Part shown: one piece after another, positions 32,460 to 48,188 of the stretch | How positions within the stretch are numbered: the first letter of the stretch is position 1 | Layout of the letters: each line of letters begins with the position of its first letter | DNA from: Sphaerosporella brunnea | Taxonomy: Eukaryota; Ascomycota; Pezizomycetes; Pezizales; Pyronemataceae | DNA length: 64,000 nucleotides | Assembly (NCBI GenBank): GCA_008704415.1 | Contig: VXIS01000062.1 | Span: 62,001-126,000 of the forward strand | Direction of reading: 5' to 3' | Translations under genes and position numbers: made by a program | Notes under the pieces: model-generated | What the model saw: only the letters and a program-made list of their open reading frames with translations | What the model was told of the DNA's origin: nothing | Database searches by the model: none

Positions 32460-34934
32460 CGCGGAAAGTAAACAGAGCTGGGATGTTCGGGATAAACAAG
32501 GTCGGGTCAATCGTATAGGCAGCTGCGGGAATAATAACAGAGGTGGGCCGACCCTACCCGGGGGCCTCTCTGTCGAAGGGTGCTTGAAGTCCGATTCCGA
32601 GTGTACTTCAGTCGACTTTTACTGATTTGGGGGAGGGGGGTTCCGGCTAGGAAGACTGAGGATAAATTGCCATCGTTGTCCAGAAGAGACAAAGATCGCA
32701 ATGGTGTTGCCGTGGGCTTTTGCTTTTTTTCGCGAGGTTGGTGGGGCTCGTTCTATGGGTGGGGCGGAGTGGGATGGATGTTGGGCTTCGTCGCAACGAT
32801 TGTGACGCGGGAAGCAGTAACGAAGGTAGAGTAGTAAACTGTGGTGCTGGTAAGGAGGGATGATGGCGGGGGGTGGGCGGTAGTATGGGTTACTCTCTAG
32901 ACGACACAACTACGACGACAGACGAGTGGATGTGATGGCAACGAGGACAGCAACGACGACAACAACGACTATCTGGCTGGCTGGCGACAAAGACCACGAT
33001 CCACGATCGTGAAGGAATCCGGAGCAGCAGCGAGCGTATGCGTGTTATAGAACTGGAGGGAATGGATAACTATACGTATACGATGTGGCCTGGGCTGCCA
33101 GCGGCAGATGGGTGGATCGGTGAGGGTTGGGGTTCTTTTGTCAACGTTGCCGTCGAAAACAGAGCAGTGCAGGGGTCTGATGCACAGGTGGGCGGGGGTG
33201 CTTTTTTGTGGTTGGTTTGGAGTTTGAAAAAGAGAGGGAAGAGTGCGAGCGTGAGGTCGTGCGGTGTGGGCCCACTGTGGGGGGCTGTAGCAGTGGACGA
33301 TTGTGGTATTGTTGGAACCCGTTGTATGCTCAGGGCCACCAGTACAGCCGTTATGATACCAATGAGAAGAGGGGTGAACTGGCTCCATTGAACATATTTG
33401 GTATTCCATGAAGTCTTCTAACGTTACGACTGAAGGAGGAGACCACATTTTCGTGCTTGATTTCCGACCTTATTTAGCTTCATTTTGCTGCACTCAAACG
33501 AAAACTGGTGCACCGGTCGTCGCCTGTGCGAGCGGCGCGCGTTTGGCCATCATTGGATCACGTGCATGGGAGTTGGCCCAGTTGTGGAGAATTAGAGTAG
33601 GGATCAGCAACTTCAGCAGCAAACCGAGCTATCTCTCCAGCGTCTGAGGTACTTGAGACGTCTCGGGGTTGAGCTCGCAGATAATTCTGCTGATTACCAA
33701 TTTAGATACCGATCGCCTCACAATGCCATACATACCGTACCTTCCTGTGCATAGAGTACACCCACCTTAAGGTATTAATAACAAGCAAACGGGCTGCATG
33801 AGCTCACGGATGCGGTGTGTGGCTGCATACTCACCAAGACGGCTCAATCACATTTGTCCTTCCCACACCTTTTGTCGTTCATCATAAATAATGGAATTGT
33901 GGGCACCACCTGCCGGTGCCCCTCCCTCTCACCCTGTATGTCATGCTATCATCCCATTCTCATGAGCTCCCGGATCCCTAACTTTCAGTGTCGGCGTCTG
34001 AATGGCCAGCCTTGCGATGATCATCACCTCTACTCCCTTTCATATGTGCGGGAATACATAAACATGATAAGGCGTTAAACCCTATTTCCCCATTCAAATT
34101 TTCGATCCCACTCATTGAAAGCTTTCTCGTCGCGTAACATGCTTTTCTTCACTCCTACCTTGCAGCTGTCCCGAGTGACTGAGCACGAACAAATCCGGAC
34201 TACTACCAAAGATTGCGCTCCGGCAAGAAACATGATGATGCTATGTGATTCCATCAGAGCTATGGGAGGCAACATAATACGTACCTTCCTAGGTAGGTAC
34301 CAGGTAAATAGTACTACCATTAATTTATCTCATAATTAGGGCCGATGATATCGGGGGCAGCCTTTTCCCCGCCCTACCACGAGACAACGACTTCAAAGTC
34401 GAATCGAAACACCCAACGGTCAACATATCTGCAGCATCAGGAACCACGCGATGGTTCTCGGGTTACCTGGACTGTTAGTCTCATTAAACGGGACTGCCAG
34501 CGGAGTCAGTTTCCTGAGTGATAGTTGGTGACGTCCGAACTATTTAGTCCTAGGCTTGTTAATTTGTGATATTCGCCCATCATCTTGGCCATTGCCAGCG
34601 CAACACGTGCGTCCCCCTCTTTCGAAGATGAGCTGCAGAGTTTGTCCGCGGACATGTTGACACGACGGCAAAGTATCTGGTGCAGGCTTTGTTTTTCCTT
34701 TCGTATGTAGGAGACCTACATAAGTCCTAGCAGAGCGCGCCTAAAGACATGTTGAGTCCTCCACATCCGCTCTCCGTACATACCCATCCACACCCACAAT
34801 CTCGATCGAGTTCATCTCAAAGCCGACACGAGTAGGGAAGATGTTCAATCCCCGTGTTTTCCGAACAACCTCCCAACTCAATCCTGCACACGCTTATCAG
34901 TGACATCACCTTCCCTGCATTCCACCGGCTCCAA
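32460..34934. other. 2.5-kb RIM15 upstream region
   Basis: The first ~1 kb should be the RIM15 promoter and 5' leader, with CAACGACGACAACAACGAC-like repeats near 32940. The rest up to the MITE at 34935 shows no conserved reading frame, tRNA-like fold or repeat that I can support. Confidence 0.45.
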
Positions 34935-35179
34935 TAGAGGGATCCGGCAGGATTTCAGTTTCTGAGGTTGGTGCTGCCGGCAACTGGGTACATGCGAAGA
35001 TGTGATTTGTGGGTCCGTTAAGCAGAACTCCAATTGCTTGACTCTGGGGTTCGCAACCCGAACTCTAAATATCTGCTGGTCCGGGTCGCGCACGGCTTGC
35101 TCTCCTCAAATCACCTCTTCGCGTCCACCCGGCGCCGGCAGCACCAGCCTCGAAAACCAAATCCCGCCGGATCCCTCTA
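34935..35179. mobile_element. MITE-like element 3 (245 bp, long imperfect inverted repeats)
   Basis: The arms of about 70 bp face each other: left TAGAGGGATCCGGCAGGATTT at 34935, right its imperfect reverse complement ending CCGGATCCCTCTA at 35179. The shared inner block GTGCTGCCGGC and the pair GCGAAGATGTGATTT / AAATCACCTCTTCGC extend the foldback. TA lies at both tips. Weak similarity may continue outwards to about 34890 and 35225, so the true ends could be wider. It ends 222 bp left of the large transposon. Confidence 0.7.
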
Positions 35180-35400
35180 CTAGATGGGGTGCTGGAGAGC
35201 GAAGAGGGGAAGTTCTAGCAAGCGTGAGGCTTTGGAGTAGGTAGTAGATATTGAACGCAGGCGCCATCGCCGTTGCTGCTATGTACATCATACTTGCTGG
35301 AAACTGCGCAACCTCACTTTACGAGCTTCCTGAGAAGAATAAACCAATTATGTAGCGAGGTTGTGCAAGTAAGTAGCGGTTGGTCCTCTCGTAAACCAGC

Positions 35401-35426
35401 CACTCAAGGAGCGTCTGGTGCAAGAC
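35401..35426 (+). repeat. left terminal inverted repeat of the 12.4-kb element
   Basis: 26 bp beginning CACT with the 14-bp core GTCTGGTGCAAGAC at 35413-35426, preceded by AGC. It lies 160 bp before the ATG of the DUF6589 gene, so it may be part of that promoter. The core could be the transposase-binding site. Confidence 0.8.
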
Positions 35427-35586
35427 CCGTCCGACACTAAGGCTTTTATTGGGCGTGTGATACCACCTTGGCGGATAGCTTAGCGTAAACTTAGTTGCCT
35501 GCCCCACCAGATTCTGCGTGTGGAGTGTGCCTCCCACGAACACGTACTCTACAACAACGACGTGCCCTATCTATCTCAGACCTATC

Positions 35587-38500
35587 ATGACCTGCCGTTG
35601 CAGCAAGATTACGATCCCACCGGGAACACCGGAACCAGAGCAACACATACTACGAGTGTTAGAATACATGAAGCAGGAGGGTTTTACAGGCCTATTGCCT
35701 TTTATCGAAGCCACGTTCAACAGTCAGAACCACGCTGTAAAGTCACGCGTGGGGCGTTTTTATGCCAACGGTGGATTTGCAACAACAGTGAAGGTGATGG
35801 CCAACCACGGTCGGTTTGGACCAGAGAATAGAGTTACAAAGCAATCAACCGATGCGTTAAAGTCCTATGTGGGTGATGAAGTAATTGACATCTGTGTACG
35901 AATACTCTGTCAGGTAAGGCGACCCCTAAAAAAGAAAACAAAAAAAAACCAGACGCTTATGGAAAATACTATGCACACAGGAGCTGGAAGAAGTGACGAA
36001 GGATAAAACAATACATATGCGACCAGGAGACTTGACACCAGAAGTTGCGGAAAGGTTCGATATGGACAATTGTGCCAGGCGGCTACAAGAACGTGCTCCA
36101 TATCTAAATCGAGTGCTACAAACACTGTGCGGAGTTGCAGAGCAGAAAGCAGCCAACAATACCGAAGAACCGACGCCAAGTACGACAACATCGAATAAGG
36201 AACGAGAAAACTTGGAGTTTTCACCAGAACTGTGGTCAATGTCCGAAAGTGAAGAAGTGTATACAGACCAAGGAGAAGGAACATTATACCGTTATACAGC
36301 AAACCGAAAAAGAAACAAAGCGATGATAGCAACACTCATGGCATATGTTATAATGTTTGCACGTTCGCAACAAAACAACTACATGCAAACAATCATAGGG
36401 TTCTGGCTACAATCGGTAAAAGCACCAAAGCGGGTGATTGCCTTATTGAATCGCCTTGGGGTATCCGTATCCTACGGATCAATCACAACAGCAGTTAAAG
36501 CCGTGGGAACTGCAGCCGCAAAAGATTTACAGGTATGGTGGTCCAAAATGAATTTGAAGCTGACAGCTTCCAAGTGCATGTAATAACAAGGCAATGGATA
36601 TAGAAAAAAGTCCAGTCGGGATGTTTTATAGGAATATGCTGGGACAATTTAGCACTCCAAGTCGGAAAGAAAGAGGAGACTGAAATGAATCGAAACGATT
36701 TGGAGCTTTGCACGACCGCATACGCCTACGAATTGAATGTTCCAAAGCCACCAGCAGGTGCAAGTCAGGAAGACAAGCAGGTTTATAAGAACATACGAGA
36801 AGCACAAGCTCGAAATGCAACAGACCGGAAGCGTCCAGGAATACCAAGGGGACTCATACTGAAGGAAAATCCCACCTATGGCAGTCTGAAACCATTCGAC
36901 TTTGTACTTAGCAGCGGAGGTCCACACATCCAAAAATACTGGACTGACATTGTCTATGTGCATTTAGCAGATATATGCCAAGAACTCTTTGGACCGGCTA
37001 TGGGAAGGTACAAACGTAACGGACAGAGAATCCCAAAACCGCAAATGCCTGAAAATCTGTATACCATGCCCACAAAGAAGACAAATATGCATCCAATGCG
37101 AGTATTCGATTTGGATGAATCGACCATTGATGGAAATGCGCGTGTGATTGAAGCAATTGTGCAGGAGTTGGGAATCACACTACCAGAACTCACAGACGGA
37201 CAAATATTGATAACCGGTGAGATTGCCAAAAGTGCGAAGCATTTTGACTGCAAAAAACTGAACCAGATATAGGCGACCAGATGACAACAATGCGGATTAG
37301 AACACTATTGGAGCTTCGTCACTATGACAAGCTTGAACAGCGTATGCGATTTGCAATGCCAGTAAGCGGTTGGCTACATATTGCAATGAACTGTGCGGAT
37401 GGCATTCTGAAAACCCACACGGGTAGAACGGATGGACAAGATCCAGGTTCACTATCACGTTTTGCCACAGCGTTGGGTCGTCCAAGTGTGACTGGTAAAG
37501 TAACCGAATTTGATGCACTGCGGCGTCTCATACTGCACGCATTAAAGGGTCACATCATTGCCGCACTGCTTGAAATGGCCTGTCAAATCGAACGGCAAAA
37601 AGGAAGCCTGGAATTACCGGCCACAATTGAAGATTTAAAGCAGTGGATTGCCAGCAATGACTGGACAGAGCTGCTACGTCGTACAGTAGAGTATTACTTC
37701 GTCATTGCCAAACCAGGTTGGAAGCGACAAATAGCGTCCGATGAAGCATGGAAAGAATATATGGTGCATCATGACCATATCATGCAAAAACCAAAGAGGC
37801 AACGAAGCCCCGACGAAACCGAGTTTGTCCAAGCCGGATTCAAAAAGAAATGGATTAAGGCGGAAGCCTTAAAACAAAGAGATACCGTGAATGAAAACTT
37901 TCTCATCTTCATCCGGGATGCAATGTTATTTTATGACATTGATACAGCCATCCGAAATGGTTCCACCGGTCGACTCCTTATGTTGTCAGAGCTGTTGACA
38001 ATATGGTTTCACGGAAACGGAAAGCATCGGTATGCTAGGGAACTGCTTGAATTTCAAGTAACCCGTCGGGCTTTATGGACTCCGGAGGCTGAGTTTCTAT
38101 ACAAAAACAACTGTTTGGTCAACCTCTCTGGAAAAGGTACAATGCCGGTTGACCAGGCGGTTGAGATTATAAACGAAAACATCAAAGTAAGTCACCAAAT
38201 ACAAAAGATAACATCATGTGGTATACTGAGGTAATCGACTGCAAAGGTAGCATATACTCCGCGGGGTACAATGCAGTCAAAGGAGTACCAAAAGGTACAT
38301 CTTGCACGTTGCCTGGCAGTGCTGAGAACTGTCCGAGAAAAGGTATTGCAGTCCATGGATGTGCAGCGCAATGGCAGTAGCCACACCGAAGTCAATGCAG
38401 CTGGTGATATCAAACGCATTGCGGAGCTCCTGATCAAAGATCTAGCCATGGTACAATGTATAGGCCGACATCAGTGCGGCGCTCGTGGATCACCACTCGA

Positions 38501-38810
38501 AGTACAAGAAGTTATTGACGGATTTGATGTGGGAGTAGAGGAGATAATGAAAGGAGAAACACTGAGAGCAGTACTGGAGAAACGACCAACGACTGAAACA
38601 GCAATAGGTACACAGTATGATGATGTACCCGAAGCAGCGTACCGAGACTTCGAAAAGTACCTCCAAGACTGTACAGATTGTCCAGAGAAAGGCTGGTTTG
38701 ATGAGGAGGAACTTGCGGTGAGAATGCAGGGCCAAGAAGCAAAACATATTGGTAGGACCGAGGACAACAATGGGGATGACCTATTGTACAGAGATTGGCA
38801 GATGGCATAA
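35587..38810 (+). CDS. DUF6589-domain protein, candidate transposase of the element
   Basis: Five exons: 35587-35913, 35981-36532, 36616-37216, 37273-38186, 38247-38810. The joined frame gives 985 aa. Introns have GTAAGG, GTATGG, GTGAGA and GTAAGT donors and close in phase. The N-terminal third has a small helical region, then a segment typical of fungal DUF6589 proteins: RKRNKAMIATLMAYVIMFARS, NNYMQTIIGFWLQSV and GVSVSYGSI. The DUF6589 core shows ICWDNLALQ (D303), ITGDQMTTMRIRTL (D495), FAMPVSGWLHIAMN, LSELLTIWFHG (E733), then HRYARELLEFQ and LVNLSGKG. Spaced acidic residues D303, D495 and E733 after strand-like segments resemble an RNase H-type D-D-E arrangement; that reading is mine. The tail is acidic. 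It is the first gene in from the left end and has no stop or frameshift. The acceptor of exon 3 (36615) is the least certain junction. Confidence 0.82.
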
Positions 38811-38912
38811 GAGATAGGGTAAAACATTATCAACAGCAGAATGAAGCAGTGAATGTACGGCAGCATATACACCTTCTCCACTGCAAAGCAAACCAGCTAG
38901 ACAGCAGCAGAG

Positions 38913-41053
38913 CTATTCCGCAAATTTTGATTCATCAAAACTAGCATCCCCAAAGCCACCAAAACCATGATGGGTAGCACTCCCTGAATGCCCAATATCA
39001 CCCACTGGATGATGTACAAGGCTATCATGACGGTTGAACGATGCAGGAGTGTTCAATCCTGGGGCAGTTGAAGGGTGGCGGGATTGAGGAGGTTGAATCG
39101 GAGGAAGGCTGGAAAGCGTGGAGCCAGTAGTGCCAGAACGCATAAAGCCAATGAGATGACCATTGGCTTGTGCCTGTAAACGTTGGAGATGTCGACGAGA
39201 TGCATTCAGTTGTGATTGATTCGTAGTGCATTGAGATGAATCCAGACGAAAGTTGGCTGTTTGACGCTCAAAGGCTGCAAGCTTTCCGTTGACAGTAGTC
39301 ATTTCGTCCATGAGTGTACGGGTCTGACGGAGGCAGTGTGCCTGCCTGTTGGCAAAATATTGAGTCAACTCTTCATAAATCAGAGCATCTGCATGCATGA
39401 TATCCATGCAGTACCGTGTTAAACCATCCCCACCAAGTCTTGCAAGATCAAAAGCACGCTGACAGAGAAATTCAATGGGTGGATTCACGCGCTCCACAAA
39501 ACGCGCAATGGCAGCCATATCAGACGCTCGGTCAACATCAAGGAATCGTGAGATCAAACTGATGCGATTGGAGTCAACCCTTTCAGCTTCCGGACCAAGA
39601 TACATCCCAGGACTGAAACCTGGTTCATCCTCGTCATCATAGGTACCACAAGAGACCATGTGTCCAGTCTCAGTGAGGAAAACATCATGCGTGGTGGGAC
39701 TATCTTCGAATGGGATGTGATCAGTAGAGGTTGATGCTGTTTGGTGAATCGAAAGTTCCTGAACGACGTTAACAACCAAAAGCATAAAAGAGACAGCACA
39801 GATGATACATACAGCATCGGTAATGGATACAGAAAGCCGTGGCCTAGTATGAGTGGACTCTGAAGCAGCACTCTGTTGTGAGGCGGAAACCACAAGTGCA
39901 GTATGATTCGGACTGTTAAAGGTAGATTCAACTGTGCTGTTGCCAGGGGTCGTTGGTTCTGCGTGAAAGTCGCGATGCTCTTTGTCAATGGTCGCTAGTA
40001 CCTCACCAACCTTATTGCCAGTAATAGAAGTAAACAGTGCTGCACCCTCTTGACCGAAACATTGAAAAATGCGTGCGAAACCGATGTCATCTTGGCAAAC
40101 GTTGTAATGTTGCTTGTAGGCCTTCCAGCCATCCACCGTAGTTGGATACAAGCTATCATCCTTTGGCAGTAATGGCCATGGTATGTGATTATCAGTTTTG
40201 GTGATAGCTTGAAGCATTCGGAATCGTGCTTGGGTATTGGTAGCACGATGGGCTGCAACACCGACGTGGAGGCCATTGATCATCTTTGAAATGAGGTCAA
40301 AGGAATCTTGACGCAAATTGAGGTAGATATCGTCGTCTGAACGGTTCCAATGGGACTGATCAACAGCATCCACTATAGGACACCACAAAGCCGCGAGTTC
40401 GGAGGGGGTTAAGTCGCAAAAAAAGTTATGCAAAACAAAATCTGCAGTAACCCATTGCAGTTTACGACCCCGGTGGCTGTTTCGGTAGTTAATATACGAT
40501 TGTACAATGTACTATCAGCATGTCAATATAAACTAACCGTTGTTCCTCAAGTCCATCAATCCACTGCAATCCACGAACAGATGCAAGCCACAAACGCGCC
40601 ATCCCTTTATGTGACTTGCATATATCGGTTTGGATTTCGTTGATCATAGCTTTGACCGTTGAGACCTCATGTTGAATGGTCACTACCTGGGACATAGGTT
40701 CCAGACCATTGAGGAGATGACCAATAGTGGCAGTATCGAAGTATCGAAACCGGTAAAACAGATAACTAACAAGGTGCCTGACTCGGCCGTGCCATTCCTC
40801 AGCAGTCTGTATGACAAATTGTCAGTTGCAATCTAGAAAACGATAATATCTAACGCCACTGAGTGCATGTTACCAAGGCATCACAAATACTTTTCTTCAG
40901 GCTGGATGGAACTTCCTCGACGAGAAGGTGAGGATCGATGGGAGGAGGCTTTTGAAATGCATTACTCGCCAATGGATCTGACCGGTCTGTAGCCAGTCGC
41001 TTTTGACGATTGTTCTGATCGGTCGAGCTAGGTGTTCCAAATCGTTTTGACAT
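38913..41053 (-). CDS. Element-borne protein of unknown function with one membrane segment
   Basis: Three exons: 41053-40874, 40806-40538, 40476-38913. Introns of 68 nt (GTAACA ... ATACAG) and 61 nt (GTTAGT, branch TTAAC, AACAG); the joined frame gives 670 aa. The N-terminus is polar with MSKRFGTPSS and a basic patch. Exon 2 reads EEWHGRVRHLVSYLFYRFRY and a helical block. A Trp-rich segment, LQWVTADFVLHNFFCDLTPSELAALW, opens exon 3. A single hydrophobic helix, AVCIICAVSFMLLVVNVV, lies at about residues 370-388, after a Ser/Thr-rich stretch. The following half is helical, possibly coiled coil near 530-590, and ends in a Gly/Ser/His-rich tail. I recognise no family. It is transcribed away from the helicase gene across 173 bp, so the two are probably co-expressed. 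The membrane helix is odd for a transposon protein; nuclear-envelope tethering is one possibility, unsupported. Confidence 0.72.
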
Positions 41054-41226
41054 GATGAGTGGTGACAATGGAACAACAACGGGGATCGAGCTGGTAGTAC
41101 AAGTTCAACAGGTACGAAAAGCCGAGAACAGAATTGCGGTTTTGTCTGCACTAATGATGGATGGATTATAGACGTTCAGTGTAGAGATATGGGAGTGAAC
41201 AAAAAGATGAGAGTTTTTCTCCGCGG
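41054..41226. promoter_or_regulatory. divergent promoter between the membrane-protein gene and the helicase gene
   Basis: Only 173 bp separate the two start codons, which face away from each other. Both genes must be driven from this interval and their own 5' leaders. No clear TATA box was seen. Confidence 0.55.
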
Positions 41227-44200
41227 ATGACAATTGTGACATCAATGGTCCGGTATCGGCTCCAATCGCAGCCTACTGATAGTGAGTAGCCGGTCCGCAG
41301 CTTCCGATCCTTCCGCATTACGGCTGAGCGACAGTCCCGACGCGTCCGTCTTGTACTCACCCGACGCTCCCGACGCTCCCGACATACCCGATTGCCCCAC
41401 GGACTGCCCAGCCGATGTCTCTAATAGTGCATCATGTTGCAACCTGTATCATTGTCCTCACCTACTGACAACCTATCCTTCCTTCCACAGAATTTGGTCT
41501 GTTCAAACTCCATATACATACTTTGCTGCAGAAAAAAATGTCAATCAAGTAAGTGTCCCTGTTGAACTGCTTCTCAGGTGCATTTGTGGCATTTCGCGAT
41601 TGACTTGGGCAATTCTTTTCAAAGCGACGCTGTTCACACCACATATACGGGGCCGGGTGCACCGTTCTTTGACACACGGTTTCTCAATGTACAGCACAGT
41701 ACAACCCCCATATCGGAGTTGGCAAGCTTGACAGATGCTTTGTCTGCGACAGCTACCAGTATCGGCTATGAGGTTCACCACTGGCAGCTTCTTGCGGCAG
41801 CATATATGTTAGCAGGACAACATTGCTTTGTTATCACAGCCACCGGGTCTGGCAAGACATTTTGTTTTCAGTCGGTTCTTTTACACCGTCCAGATACCAT
41901 TGTGGCTGTTATATGTCCCTTGATTACCTTGATGGAAGATCAGGTTGCTGCTGCCAACAAAATCGGCCTGTCAGCTGTTGCTCTGCATGCTGAAAATCTA
42001 CTCCACCATGAGCAACTGATAAGAGACGTGGCCCAAGGTGTGTACAGGCTAGTCTTGCTCGGACCGGAGTTTTGTGTACCAGGTAATCAGTACTGGATGT
42101 GCCTAACGAAGGATTGTACATTCCGTCAGCGTCTTGTTGGCATTGTCATTGATGAAGCTCATCTGTGTCATGCCTGGCGAGACTTTCGTCCTAAGATTGA
42201 TGGTTTATTCCGTCTCAAATCATGGTTCAACGTACCGTTGATGGTGATGTCAGCAACCATGACACCCTATGTCCGGCAATATGTCCACAGTGGCTTGCGA
42301 CTGCCAGGACATGTTCCCTTAATACATTGTCCAATCGATCGACCGGAAATATACTTGTCTGTACAGACCATTCAGCATCCGATTGCAACGTTTAAAGACT
42401 TGGACTTTCTTCTACCATCTTTGGTTTTGCAGCAGGATGTGGTTCCCACCATTGTCTTTGCTGATTCCCAGATGGAAGTATCTAACTTGTGCGCGCACTT
42501 TTGGAGCAAAGTACCCCCTGATTGGTACCATCGTAACCCTTTTACCTTTGCTGCCATTTCAACCGGATTCAATCAAAACCGTCGACTGTTGGTTCTCAAA
42601 GCAATGCGAGCTGGAATGGTCAAGATTCTGTTTGCAACTCAAATTGCTGAAGTTGGTTTGGACTTTGGAACGGTTACCAGAGTTGTTCAGTGGCGTGTTC
42701 CATTGACCTTGTCTGGATCGGGTTTATGGCAACGTTGGGGCCGGGCCTGCAGGCGAAGAGATACCATTGGGGTTGGTATTGTGTTTGTCTCACCGGCAGC
42801 CAAAATTCCGTCAACTTTGAATCATCCATTGGCATTGCTTACAACCAGTCCGCAAGACGCAACAGTTGGTGCTGTGCTACAGTCAATTTATAGTTTTGAC
42901 AGCAGTACCAAGCGGAAGGACGCTGGAGCAGGGTCCTCCAAATGGCGATTGGATTGCTCCATTCAGGATGATACTCCTTATGAAGTCAATCCTGTTGTAG
43001 CAGTTGCTCATGAACATTGCCTTGCCGATAGATCCTCCGATTTGCATGATGGCATCCAGGATGGTTTAGCTGCAGTTGATGATTGCAGTCAGCCTAGTCA
43101 AACCGTTCCTGACGATCCTCCCGAAAACATGTCAGGGTGATTCACTCCTTGCATGACTTGGTCACTGGTTTAGAAACTCCAGTTCAAATTTGTTAATTAA
43201 TTTTTAGAGCCTTTGAGATCAACGAGATTGCCGAAAGTACTCCAACTGCCAGCGATCTCAATCCACCACCAGCTGGCAAATCCCGGTCTGTTCCGATGTT
43301 GTGTCGTCTTATCTTGTGGATTGTCAACACTCCTGGTTGCATTCGAGAGTGTTTTTTACGATACTTCGATGAAGCTGGCTTTGATGGCACAAGGTATAGC
43401 TTGACTAGTCCAGATAAATTGTCAACTCCGTGTTGTGATCGACACACACCATTTGAACGACTACCAATAGAATATGCTCAGCTGATGCCAGAATACCACT
43501 ACCGGATGATTACTGATTCATCCTGTCCACTGGATAGCTTTCAAGCTCAATCTGCTGTGGATCGACTCAGTAAACCCTTCCCGGTACTGCGTCCGACCAC
43601 GCAGCAATCGACGGCTATTGCACAAGCATTACGGTCCTATCGACGGAGTGTATGGAATGCTTCGGGCCTTGGTGGACCGTTCAGCATATATCCATCATAC
43701 AAACTCCTTTCTGAACAACAGATACAGACTTTGGTTAAACAGTCCGGTCAGATCTATAGTTGCGGTATATCTCCGTTGACAGTCTTAAAGCTGTCTCCTT
43801 GGGATGGTCTCCAGCCTTATGAGCAGACTATCGTTCAAGTTATTTGTGCAGCTTGGAACTTTGCTTCTGCTTCGGCTTCATCCTCATCAGATCTGTCTAC
43901 TTCCGCTCCTTCTACATCCGATCCATCCACTTCAGCTGGATTGACTTCTGCTGTGTCCACTTCAACTTTGTCTGGACAGGCAAGCAAAAATTCTATGCCA
44001 CAGTCATTGTTGCTGTCTGGAGATCCTCGGAGTCATCCTACCGCTCTGGATACCACTGCTACCCCGGCAGGTGGGCAAGTCTGCCCTTCACCAAGAACAG
44101 GTCTGTAGTTTTTCGTTGGATAAACAATGTATTTGTGCTGAAATAATCACCTGTTTAGGTTTTAATGGGGTACCTCTGCGATATTCGGATGAACGCCAGT

Positions 44201-44352
44201 TACCCTTGCAGGTCCAGCAAGCTTTAAAACAACATCCTCAACCGAGGGGTCGACCCTCTCGGGTTTCTGTGGAGGCTCGACAGCAGCTGATTGCTGAGTT
44301 GATGGCTCAGTTTGAGTCCGGCTGCCTTGCTCAACCCGGTCCTGCCAGCTAG
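41227..44352 (+). CDS. RecQ-like DEAH helicase carried by the element
   Basis: Exons 41227-41281, 41491-41548, 41625-43136, 43208-44100, 44159-44352; the joined frame gives 903 aa. The third-exon acceptor TTTTCAAAG follows a TTGAC branch. An internal ATG at 41538 (MSINDAVHTTY) could also be the start, making exon 1 part of the leader. Helicase motifs: VITATGSGKTF (Walker A), VICPLITLMEDQ (Ia), VIDEAHLCHAW (DEAH, motif II), MVMSATMTP (III), TIVFADSQ (IV), IAEVGLDFGTVTRVVQW (V) and QRWGRACRR (VI). The DEAH box and the ...L-C-H-A-W continuation are RecQ-like. The C-terminal 380 residues are long, with MLCRLILWIVNTPGC, a Ser/Thr-rich tract and a Gln-rich end, without a clear HRDC domain. Likely role is 3'-5' unwinding during excision, repair or replication of the element. 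Confidence 0.86.
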
Positions 44353-44712
44353 GCTGGGTCTCTGCAAATTGTACATTTTGAGTCTGATGTATGGTGTTCA
44401 ACCACATAGTTTGCTGGCTATTCTGACCTCACTATTTAACTGCATATAGGCAGGCTCTCTTCCATACCCATTTTGACGCCATCAGGGTCAAAGTTCAACA
44501 CAAGGACAACAGGACAAATAATACATTATGATTGTTGCCGGTATATGTTGTCTGTTTCAAATGGTGGATTTTTTGGTTGTGGTTTGCTTGTGCAGTGTCT
44601 CTTCCATCTTTTGATTGGTTTGCTTTTGCGGCAGTAGCTCTTTCCTTCATTCACAATAGCATACTGTTCATTTACTGTCCTCTAAACTGATACAGCCACT
44701 CTAACCATCATA

Positions 44713-46419
44713 CTAACGGAGATCCTCCGGAAAAGTAAATACCCATGAATACCGATTACTCCCTCTCCACTTTGTTGTAAAGTGTTCAACCCGTTCTCCT
44801 CTCAGTCCTATTGCTGATCCTGGCTGAAAGGGTATCTTCCTTTTCAACAATGGAATGCAGAATAAGCCCCCAGTGTAATTGCCAAACGGTGTTAACCAGG
44901 CCCATCCTTTGTTCCAATCATTGTGATCAACATGCGGCTCAGTCAACACATTAATCAGCAGTGCTCGATAGGCAAACAGCTCCTCATCAAAGGTTTGTGC
45001 AGCTATCCGATCTCCCACATTTTTGATTGCTGCAAATGTTTGCCTGTATGCATCTCGCAACTTCCTATCCACTCCTGCAAAACAAGCATCCAGTGTTTGG
45101 GTGATATTTCCACACCACACCTGTAGGTTTCGGTTCAAGCTTCCCCTGTACATGCCATCGCCTTGAAGATCCTTAGTGAGGCCAGCTTTTAGATTGGCAT
45201 GTCCTTGCTCTCCCTTGAGTCCAAAGTAGTAAATCCCGGACCGTGCATCAGGACCACTAGCCCAGCTGAACTGCTGGTTTTCCCCCTCTTCAATCCAATC
45301 TTGGTACCCAGAATGGCGACGGAAATCCATTGGCTGTCGTGGCTTCACAAAACGCGCAACCTTGTCTATGTTTTCAGTTGTCATCTTGACAATGTATCGT
45401 CCATAGTCTTTACCCCATGCCCGTTCATAGGCATCATGATAGAAGGCCACAATTGGTATGAGATTCTTATCGACGGCAAGATAGCTCTTATCGGACGGTA
45501 ACTCTTCAAATCCTTCTGCATCCTGTAATGCTTGTTCCATTGCGGTCCCTTGCACTGACCCCTTTTCCTTGTCCAGGTCGACATTGAAAAAAACTTCCAC
45601 AATTTTTTCTTTTCCTGTAAACCGCCATGACTCCCGACCAGCCTGCCTGGCGCATTCTCTGAGTTCTGCTTGGTTTTTACTGATATCAAAAAACCCATCG
45701 AATATTTTTTCTCTGCCTTTCAATGTAAAGGTGTTGGTGTTCAGCTCGCCTTCAAAACCATCTCGGTCCGCAGACAGACGAATATCTGGCCAGGGATAGG
45801 GATATGGTGGCATTTGGCTTGCTGGTGTTCTTGGTTGATCCGCAACTGGCTCCAGATTCCTTATAAACTCTGGTACAGTGTGTGCATACGGGGTTTGTAC
45901 ATATTCCAGAATATGGGGTGGTATCTCTCCTTTAAAACCCGGCCTTTGAGTACGCTTTTTGACCCTGTTGACCCTGTCTGGATGCATAGCTTCAGCCATT
46001 AAGAGGTTGCTGGTACCAACGTTTGGATCGCTGTTTGGATTGCTGTTTACGGTGTGGCTTTCATCTTGGATTTCATGGTCCACACTCCCTCGGACTTTCC
46101 TTCGCTTTGATTTTTTCTTCTTTTTTGGCACTGGCGGTGTGGACTGTTTGCGCTTCAATTGTTTTTCCTTTTGCTCTTTTTCCAGTTTTTGAATTTCACT
46201 TGGAGTATGTGCTTCCCAGTACCCAGCGTCGGTCAAATTGGAGGGTTGCACCCACACTAGCCGTTGTAACTCATTCCTGGTCGAGCCTGGTTTCTCTTGC
46301 AGGGCATCGGGTCCATATTCTGCCTTTCTGGTATCTATAGTATGGGCGGGATTGGCTGGATGCTGTGCGAGAAACTCAAATGGGATGTCTGATGGCAATT
46401 CTGACTGGTGTTCGGACAT
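44713..46419 (-). CDS. Fe(II)/2-oxoglutarate dioxygenase, TET/JBP-like
   Basis: A single exon of 568 aa, start ATG at 46419, converging on the helicase gene. The N-terminal ~230 residues are polar and carry a strong nuclear-localisation-type cluster, PKKKKKSKRRKVRG, near 100-113. The C-terminal domain (about 330-568) ends with the double-stranded beta-helix signature. H496-x-D498 occurs in PHVDHNDW, then NYTGGLFCIPLL, FQPGSAIGLRGERVEHF with distal H546, and NRYSWVFTF with R556 for 2-oxoglutarate binding. The order HxD ... H ... R and the GG-x-F-C-x-P block match the fungal TET/JBP class, which oxidises 5-methylcytosine or thymine. TET/JBP genes in mushrooms are known to travel with KDZ transposons; here the company is a DUF6589 gene. 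All iron and cosubstrate ligands are present. Base specificity cannot be read from the sequence; another 2OG oxygenase class is possible. Confidence 0.8.
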   Translation of the reverse strand: MSEHQSELPSDIPFEFLAQHPANPAHTIDTRKAEYGPDALQEKPGSTRNELQRLVWVQPSNLTDAGYWEAHTPSEIQKLEKEQKEKQLKRKQSTPPVPKKKKKSKRRKVRGSVDHEIQDESHTVNSNPNSDPNVGTSNLLMAEAMHPDRVNRVKKRTQRPGFKGEIPPHILEYVQTPYAHTVPEFIRNLEPVADQPRTPASQMPPYPYPWPDIRLSADRDGFEGELNTNTFTLKGREKIFDGFFDISKNQAELRECARQAGRESWRFTGKEKIVEVFFNVDLDKEKGSVQGTAMEQALQDAEGFEELPSDKSYLAVDKNLIPIVAFYHDAYERAWGKDYGRYIVKMTTENIDKVARFVKPRQPMDFRRHSGYQDWIEEGENQQFSWASGPDARSGIYYFGLKGEQGHANLKAGLTKDLQGDGMYRGSLNRNLQVWCGNITQTLDACFAGVDRKLRDAYRQTFAAIKNVGDRIAAQTFDEELFAYRALLINVLTEPHVDHNDWNKGWAWLTPFGNYTGGLFCIPLLKRKIPFQPGSAIGLRGERVEHFTTKWRGSNRYSWVFTFPEDLR

Positions 46420-46425
46420 TGCGGG

Positions 46426-46459
46426 TGATGACGTTGCGGGTGACGACGTTGCGGGTAAC
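46426..46459. repeat. 15-bp tandem repeat upstream of the dioxygenase gene
   Basis: GATGACGTTGCGGGT is repeated with small changes (TGACGACGTTGCGGGTAAC) immediately before the dioxygenase ATG, giving two to three GTTGCGGGT copies. It lies in the 5' leader or core promoter. Confidence 0.6.
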
Positions 46460-46715
46460 GAGCGGTCAAAGTTGTGTCACAGGGTGGCTTCTGTATGTTT
46501 TACGGCGTTTTGATGAGGATACTGAGTATTTTCGGGTTCTCTAGACATATAATTAGCATCTGGAAAAACATCGACTGCATGTCCTCCTCTATTTTGCTTT
46601 GCTAACATTGAGACACAGCCATATGGATAGGTAATCGCATGGGTTGTCTTCTTACCTGTTCACAGTAACACCTTGTATCCTGTCAGGAATCTTCGTCTGT
46701 CGGGTGTTCTTGTGA

Positions 46716-46950
46716 GTCCTTAGGGTTCCTTCCGGGTCCTGGTGGCTCCTTCGGGGTGCTTGGGGGTTCCTTCAGGGTTCCTTGCGGGTCTTGGAGGTTC
46801 CTTCCGGGTCCTGATAGCTCCTTCCAGGTCCTGGTGGCTCCTTCGGGGCGCTTGGAGGTTCCTTCCGGGTCCTTGGGGTTCCTTCCGGGACCTGGCAGCT
46901 CCTTCAGAGTGCTTAGGGTTCTTGGGGTTCTTCAGGGTTCTCTTTTCCGT
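46716..46950. repeat. minisatellite 1 (TTCCTTCCGGGTCCT-type units)
   Basis: About ten irregular units built on TTCC-TTCCGGGTCCTGGTGGCTCC and TTCGGGGTGCTTGGGG variants, 17-27 bp each. Open frames across it (EGATRTRKEP-like repeats) are repeat artefacts. Lies at the right end of the 12.4-kb element, outside any gene. Confidence 0.8.
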
Positions 46951-47283
46951 TCCTAAATATGCAATTAGCACCTTCAAAAAATTTGGCAGCATTTCCCCCT
47001 GTATTTTGCTTCGCCAACATTGAAAAGTGGCCATATGGCAGCACTAATAGCTGTTGGGAGCGTGGGTTGTGTCCGTACCTCTTCGCAACAACTTGCTGCA
47101 CCTTTCCTCCTCCTACCGGTACTTGAAAACACGCCGGTGAAAACACCGGTTGAGGGTCTGACCGGCAGGCAAGCCCGCGCTGGGGAGACTATGGAAAAAC
47201 CGCTCGCAAGCAAGCTTGTTTTCCCGCCTCAGGTGTTTTCAAGCACCAGTCCTTCAACCTCGGGGTTCTGTCGGGTAGTAACT

Positions 47284-47649
47284 GGCTGCGATGGCTGGCG
47301 TCACGGTGCTGAGGCTGGCTGGCTGCGATCGCTGGCTTCACAGTGCTGAGGCTGGCTGGCTGCGAGGGGTCACGGTGCTGAGGCTGGCTGGCTGCGATGG
47401 CTGGCGTCACGGTGCTGAGGCTGGCTGGCTGCGATCGCTGGCTTCACAGTGCTGAGGCTGGCTGGCTGCGAGGGGTCACGGTGCTGAGGCTGGCTGGCTG
47501 CGATGGCTGGCGTCACGGTGCTGAGGCTGGCTGGCTGCGATCGCTGGCTTCACAGTGCTGAGGCTGGCTGGCTGCGAGGGGTCACGGTGCTGAGGCTGGC
47601 TGGCTGCGATCGCTGGCTTCACGGTGCTGTGGCTGGCTGGCCTCACGGT
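47284..47649. repeat. minisatellite 2 with 106-bp higher-order unit
   Basis: Built on CTGAGGCTGGCTGGCTGCGA. Unit starts at 47309, 47346, 47378, 47415, 47452, 47484, 47521, 47558 and 47590 give spacings 37, 32, 37 repeated, that is a 106-bp higher-order unit present about three times, before a diverged last copy at 47627. The G-rich strand could form secondary structure. It ends about 145 bp before the right tip of the element. Confidence 0.9.
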
Positions 47650-47769
47650 CACGCAACACAGGGGGTGTATACTGGCTACGGGTTTGATTTTTTTTGCACA
47701 GTGAGGCTAGCCTACATAGTCACTAGCGCAGCGCGGGTGTCGGGCGAGGACCCTGCGGATATCGCTCCA

Positions 47770-47795
47770 GTCTTGCACCAGACTAAGCGTCAGTG
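47770..47795 (-). repeat. right terminal inverted repeat of the 12.4-kb element
   Basis: GTCTTGCACCAGAC at 47770-47783 followed by TAAGCGTCAGTG; reads CACTGACGCTTA plus the core on the minus strand. Followed by AGC, matching the 3 bp before the left end. Confidence 0.8.
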
Positions 47796-48188
47796 AGCGA
47801 GCGAACTGCGAAAAGTCTGGGTGGCGAGAGGAAGCGGTTGGCACAGCAACACCTCACTTTGCCAGCAGCTGGGCAGGAGGTGTGACATCCATCAATCCTG
47901 TGTAGAGGTAAGCAACCTCTCGCGGGGTTGACAACCGCGCTACCACATTGTCAATCGTGCGATCATGTGCTTTTAGTAATACAGAGAACACGTTACATAG
48001 TGAAGATTTCAACGCTCGTCGCCACAATCTCATCCTGCCACAAAGACCCTGCGTCTTATCCCGCTGCAAAGACTGCAATATTTGTCCACATACAGAACTG
48101 AAAATGACTTCGGAATTCAACGTTGCCAGCCTTCAAACTGCAAAATTACCTTGAGCCTTGTGGAAACACTGCGTTACACGCAGGACCT

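Follow-up and report, generated by a model that had tools for sequence, protein, structure and literature searches.

A 64,000-nucleotide window on one contig (C579 in our numbering, VXIS01000062.1) of the genome of the pezizalean ascomycete Sphaerosporella brunnea, a sequence of 640 contigs and 50.6 Mb, contains a complete 12,449-bp mobile unit at positions 35384 to 47832 whose four genes encode a DUF6589 protein, a product with a single hydrophobic segment, a helicase of RecQ-like type and a dioxygenase resembling TET/JBP. It is probably a helicase-bearing DDE transposon of the AcademH lineage and has a TET/JBP enzyme outside the listed types. An initial annotation of this DNA had correctly described a mobile unit with this gene content, but misread its ends, its target duplication and its class. 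The features of the element are as follows, in window coordinates.

35384..47832, forward strand: whole element, 12,449 bp, delimited by the terminal repeat and duplication, the stop points of other copies, and paralogous empty sites.
35375..35383, no strand: left 9-bp target-site duplication AGCGGTTGG, from a paired-repeat search and empty sites.
35384..35391, forward strand: left terminal inverted repeat TCCTCTCG, perfect over 8 bp.
35413..35426, forward strand: subterminal 14-bp core GTCTGGTGCAAGAC.
35587..38810, forward strand: DUF6589 DDE transposase candidate, 989 aa (splice model, deposited protein, PF20231, fold); exons in the splice model 35587-35913, 35981-36532, 36604-37216, 37273-38186 and 38247-38810.
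38913..40821, reverse strand: protein with one strongly hydrophobic segment; open reading frame (ORF) 38913-40511 (532 aa) plus upstream ORF 40489-40821; homologues on C430 and C400.
41566..44352, forward strand: RecQ-like superfamily 2 helicase of at least two exons; DEAD and Helicase_C domains, best Protein Data Bank (PDB) matches in the RecQ family; homologues on C430 and C400.
44713..46419, reverse strand: TET/JBP-family dioxygenase, 568 aa, with HxD...H...R present, assigned by sequence and fold.
47282..47641, forward strand: subterminal tandem array with a 37/106-bp unit.
47770..47783, reverse strand: subterminal 14-bp core, inverted.
47825..47832, reverse strand: right terminal inverted repeat, a perfect 8-bp match to the left tip.
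47833..47841, no strand: right 9-bp target-site duplication AGCGGTTGG, from a paired-repeat search and empty sites.

Positions 35384 and 47832 define the sole pairing of an 8-bp inverted repeat with a 9-bp direct repeat in a 300x300 box at the ends, where about 5e-6 such pairs are expected if equal base frequencies are assumed. Paralogous empty sites, spanning the joined flanks with a single AGCGGTTGG, are clear in three of the seven flank repeats compared (C12, C237 and C172); the remaining four have a diverged left side and a single change in the 9-mer. Right-arm copies on C124, C400, C169 and C450 extend beyond 47795 and stop at 47830-47835, as does a copy of its last 40 bp on C423, and the flanks after the stop all differ in the four copies read (C124, C400, C169 and C423). 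The right flank of the window element is itself repetitive, with at least nine genomic matches starting exactly at 47833; here and below, copy counts from searches of genome DNA are lower bounds.

The initial annotation had instead proposed CACTA-like tips with a 3-bp duplication. The letters are as it stated, with CACT at 35401, its complement ending at 47795, 20 of 26 matches between the two ends and AGC on both sides. In random 100x100 boxes of the window (400 boxes), however, pairings of a 4-bp inverted tip and a 3-bp direct repeat average 0.625 per box, and the 300x300 box at the ends has three of them, CACT/AGC included. Because the pairing is at chance level, right-arm copies run past 47795, and the empty sites coincide with the outer ends, the CACT/AGC ends are rejected, and with them the claim that similarity is lost exactly at CACT. 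The 14-bp core is perfect as described, but it is subterminal and asymmetrically placed, 29 bp inside the true left tip and 49 bp inside the right one. The proposed genome search for further copies did recover right ends, although these pass CACT and no second complete copy with the left end of the window element was found in the genome. A left-tip pattern search returned 140 matches versus 91 for the reversed control, with no likeness outside the search pattern in five candidate left tips among the places listed. On C423, a site near 151,000 loosely resembles the right tip, with four mismatches, and we attribute it to chance.

Relatives in the same genome were found with the main DUF6589 exon, which has 19 matches on ten contigs in a protein search. 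Two are complete, at 9,957 bp (C79) and 10,064 bp (C379), and are 98.1% and 97.0% alike in two long aligned blocks; both have 8-bp inverted tips TGGCCTCG, with separate 9-bp duplications, GGAAGAACC and TGAAACAGG. Of four further places, three (C1, C539 and C618) have the left tip of this type with other flanks; it was not seen in the 500 bases read of the fourth, C469. On the C79 element (83069-93025; loci L043, L044 and L047) lie genes for DUF6589 and a helicase, together with a minus-strand open frame of 606 aa; neither C79 nor C379 is among the contigs of 40 genome matches to TET, and no open frame of the C79 element is matched by the dioxygenase.

The full gene set recurs on C430, where homologues of all four genes keep their order and orientation, at identities of 28-41% for DUF6589 (three pieces), 25 and 40% for the 38913..40821 protein (two pieces), 46-50% for the helicase core and 66% for the dioxygenase, at which gene the contig stops. 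A decayed copy on C400 retains parts of the 38913..40821 protein, the helicase and the dioxygenase, with internal stops. No left tip was recognised on C430 with exact patterns, nor in 1.8 kb of C24. With a divergent set on C430 and a decayed copy on C400, the four-gene combination is, judged from sequence comparison, old. In comparisons of TET against C635, C112 and C430, and of C24 against C635, dS (synonymous substitutions per site) is saturated. The recent activity suggested by the initial annotation is not shown for this copy: among the matches listed, the best long DNA match elsewhere to the genes of the window element is about 81%.

The spliced 989-aa DUF6589 protein is identical to a deposited S. 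brunnea protein, FN846DRAFT_1020806, and a Pfam scan of the exons gives a match to PF20231; a suspected frameshift near 37248 is a normal intron in the splice model. The protein has an RNase-H-like fold with conserved D, D and E residues, as expected of a DDE transposase, and a structural re-examination gives DDE transposases or RAG in its eight best rows, the nearest solved folds being Hermes (hAT), the P element and Transib. That Foldseek alone gave no significant match weighs against this interpretation. On the modelled fold we regard DUF6589 as a candidate for the transposase of the element, and the description of the unit as being without a standard transposase appears to be mistaken, given that DUF6589 itself is predicted to fold like one.

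Four coding units are present as the initial annotation reported, and their intactness is supported for DUF6589 and the dioxygenase, whose ORF lacks internal stops. The helicase is carried by ORFs 41566-43140 and 43197-44108, possibly reaching 44352, with its 5' end provisional; Pfam identifies DEAD and Helicase_C, and the top PDB sequence matches are RECQ1, RecQ, WRN and RECQ5. In the 38913..40821 protein a single hydrophobic 19-residue window has a mean hydropathy of 2.49, with no other window reaching 1.2 or above; the protein had been called a membrane protein, of which the single segment stands and the membrane nature is possible.

The dioxygenase belongs to the TET/JBP family by sequence and predicted fold. 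Residues H496, D498, H546 and R556 are invariant in all 14 aligned sequences, and a profile match to CcTet was obtained; in a Pfam scan with E up to 5, Tet_JBP is matched in six of 14 homologues (best 7.8e-5) and is not matched in the window dioxygenase itself. Structural rows 1-11 are TET/JBP folds, although the predicted model is of low confidence. CcTet of Coprinopsis cinerea is the best structural and sequence match, with approximately 13% identity over the structural alignment. In the portions available to us of a survey of TET-bearing transposons (Kojima 2025, PMC12730594), which names ten lineages, PE-type TET/JBP proteins of Pezizomycetes have HxE, and AG-type proteins conserve CcTet Asp337. 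The window dioxygenase differs from both, with HxD in place of HxE in all 14 aligned sequences, and an alanine (A507) aligned with Asp337. The fungal TET-bearing DNA transposons described there likewise have complete ends and a TET/JBP dioxygenase. The survey also lists a family Helitron-1_SpBr, a name that suggests Sphaerosporella brunnea.

We note that four other places (L028, L029, L031 and L032, on C446, C543, C523 and C420) have stretches with a related TET-like gene that are 98-99% mutually identical, with no DUF6589 match listed on these contigs. They probably represent another recent TET-bearing element, of a class not identified; the L031 motif is YxD, not HxD.

Duplications are described as 9 or 10 bp long in AcademH and 3 or 4 bp long in AcademX, sizes seemingly tied to their helicase and nuclease (PMC10045372, in part), and AcademH is present at low copy number in Basidiomycota, Ascomycota and Mucoromycota (PMC10799480, in part). 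The window element shares with AcademH, as characterized in these excerpts, a transposase accompanied by a DEAD/Helicase_C helicase, duplications of 9-10 bp, low copy number and occurrence in fungi including Ascomycota. Because a helicase is encoded beside the transposase candidate and the duplications are 9 bp in this element (AGCGGTTGG) and its relatives (GGAAGAACC, TGAAACAGG), we place it probably in the AcademH lineage, by likeness to described marks and not by transposase sequence. It differs from AcademH, known here by description only, in adding the TET/JBP dioxygenase and a further protein. Academ is not among the TET-bearing lineages in the main text of PMC12730594 (one 'academ' word was counted in the whole file, and supplementary tables may list it). 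Our literature search found no account joining AcademH with a dioxygenase and none on DUF6589, PF20231 giving only unrelated titles, and the parts of PMC8290104 and PMC12210899 available contain nothing on AcademH with TET.

A DDE lineage outside Academ (hAT-, MULE-, KDZ-like or unnamed) that gained a RecQ-like helicase and TET independently is an explanation that we consider unlikely, although several observations are consistent with it. The closest solved folds are those of Hermes, the P element and Transib, with Hermes providing the best structural rows, which cover the RNase-H-like core with its helical insertion; DUF6589 is its own family in Pfam, and the likeness to Academ is one of described marks. 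MULE elements also produce duplications of about 9 bp, but the MULE transposase domain PF10551 was not found in a Pfam scan covering single DUF6589 exons. Identity to Hermes is 8-9% over the structural alignment, and the 9-bp duplications of three elements differ from the 8 bp of hAT (5-7 in sublineages), the 8 bp of Zisupton and the 7 bp of Kyakuja (PMC12730594, in part), and so from the 7-8 bp of KDZ elements, whereas PMC10045372 characterizes AcademH by a helicase with 9-10 bp.

It is very improbable that four host genes, or nested older elements, simply sit between matching repeats by chance: the flanks are indeed rich in repeats, and the left end was not found on any other complete copy, but C430 keeps the four-gene order, paralogous empty sites exist, and DUF6589 and helicase on C79 and C379 are bounded by like ends with 9-bp duplications. 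Scarcely credible at all is the CACTA/EnSpm-type element of the initial annotation, since, although rusts have EnSpm families that carry TET, with CAC tips and 3-bp duplications, and Agaricus has a TET-bearing EnSpm (PMC12730594, in part), the true tips are TCCTCTCG and not CAC...GTG, the duplication is 9 bp and not 2-3 bp, and of the C(2)C and H(3-4)H motifs expected between the second D and last E, no CxxC lies between D499 and E754 of DUF6589, H(3-4)H spacing being present at 586 and 744.

We therefore consider it likely that this is an autonomous cut-and-paste transposon with a helicase and 9-bp duplications, most likely AcademH, that acquired a TET/JBP dioxygenase. The DUF6589 protein would bind the subterminal repeats, cut with D307/D499/E754 and insert with a 9-bp stagger, with the RecQ-like helicase opening or processing donor or target DNA. 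Modified bases in the DNA of the element itself may be oxidised by the TET/JBP enzyme, and this would counteract silencing, so that the genes can still be expressed and the ends still used. We also lean, somewhat more tentatively, toward a broader proposal, that PF20231 is the transposase of helicase-bearing 9-bp-duplication transposons, one old sublineage of which has a fourth TET/JBP type (HxD, and without the CcTet 5-methylcytosine aspartate), such that a single element would carry its own cutter, unwinder and DNA-mark eraser. If so, a function could be assigned to the fungal family DUF6589, the helicase-bearing lineage would join the transposons that captured a methylation-editing enzyme, and a compact one-element system would be at hand in which to ask if such enzymes help transposons evade silencing. 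The corrected ends matter here, as the element would otherwise be filed under CACTA.

The initial annotation also proposed escape from repeat-induced mutation. TpA/ApT is 0.657 in the element and 0.651 in the rest of the window, and (CpA+TpG)/(ApC+GpT) is 1.337 and 1.242, respectively; by the usual thresholds for these dinucleotide indices there is no trace of repeat-induced mutation in either, and because the rest of the window is equally without trace, escape is not demonstrated.

The element lies among other repeats. Directly to its left, at 34933-35179, is a short MITE-like (miniature inverted-repeat transposable element) repeat, some 250 bp long and with inverted ends, present at many genomic places. 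The right flank, 47833-48150, consists of repeats found at many other genomic places, the first of which was used in the empty-site comparison. Within the right arm, a stretch of about 320 bp beside the tandem array (46950-47271) recurs elsewhere in the genome, and approximately 45 of the 60 listed genome matches (counted by eye) fall on or across it.
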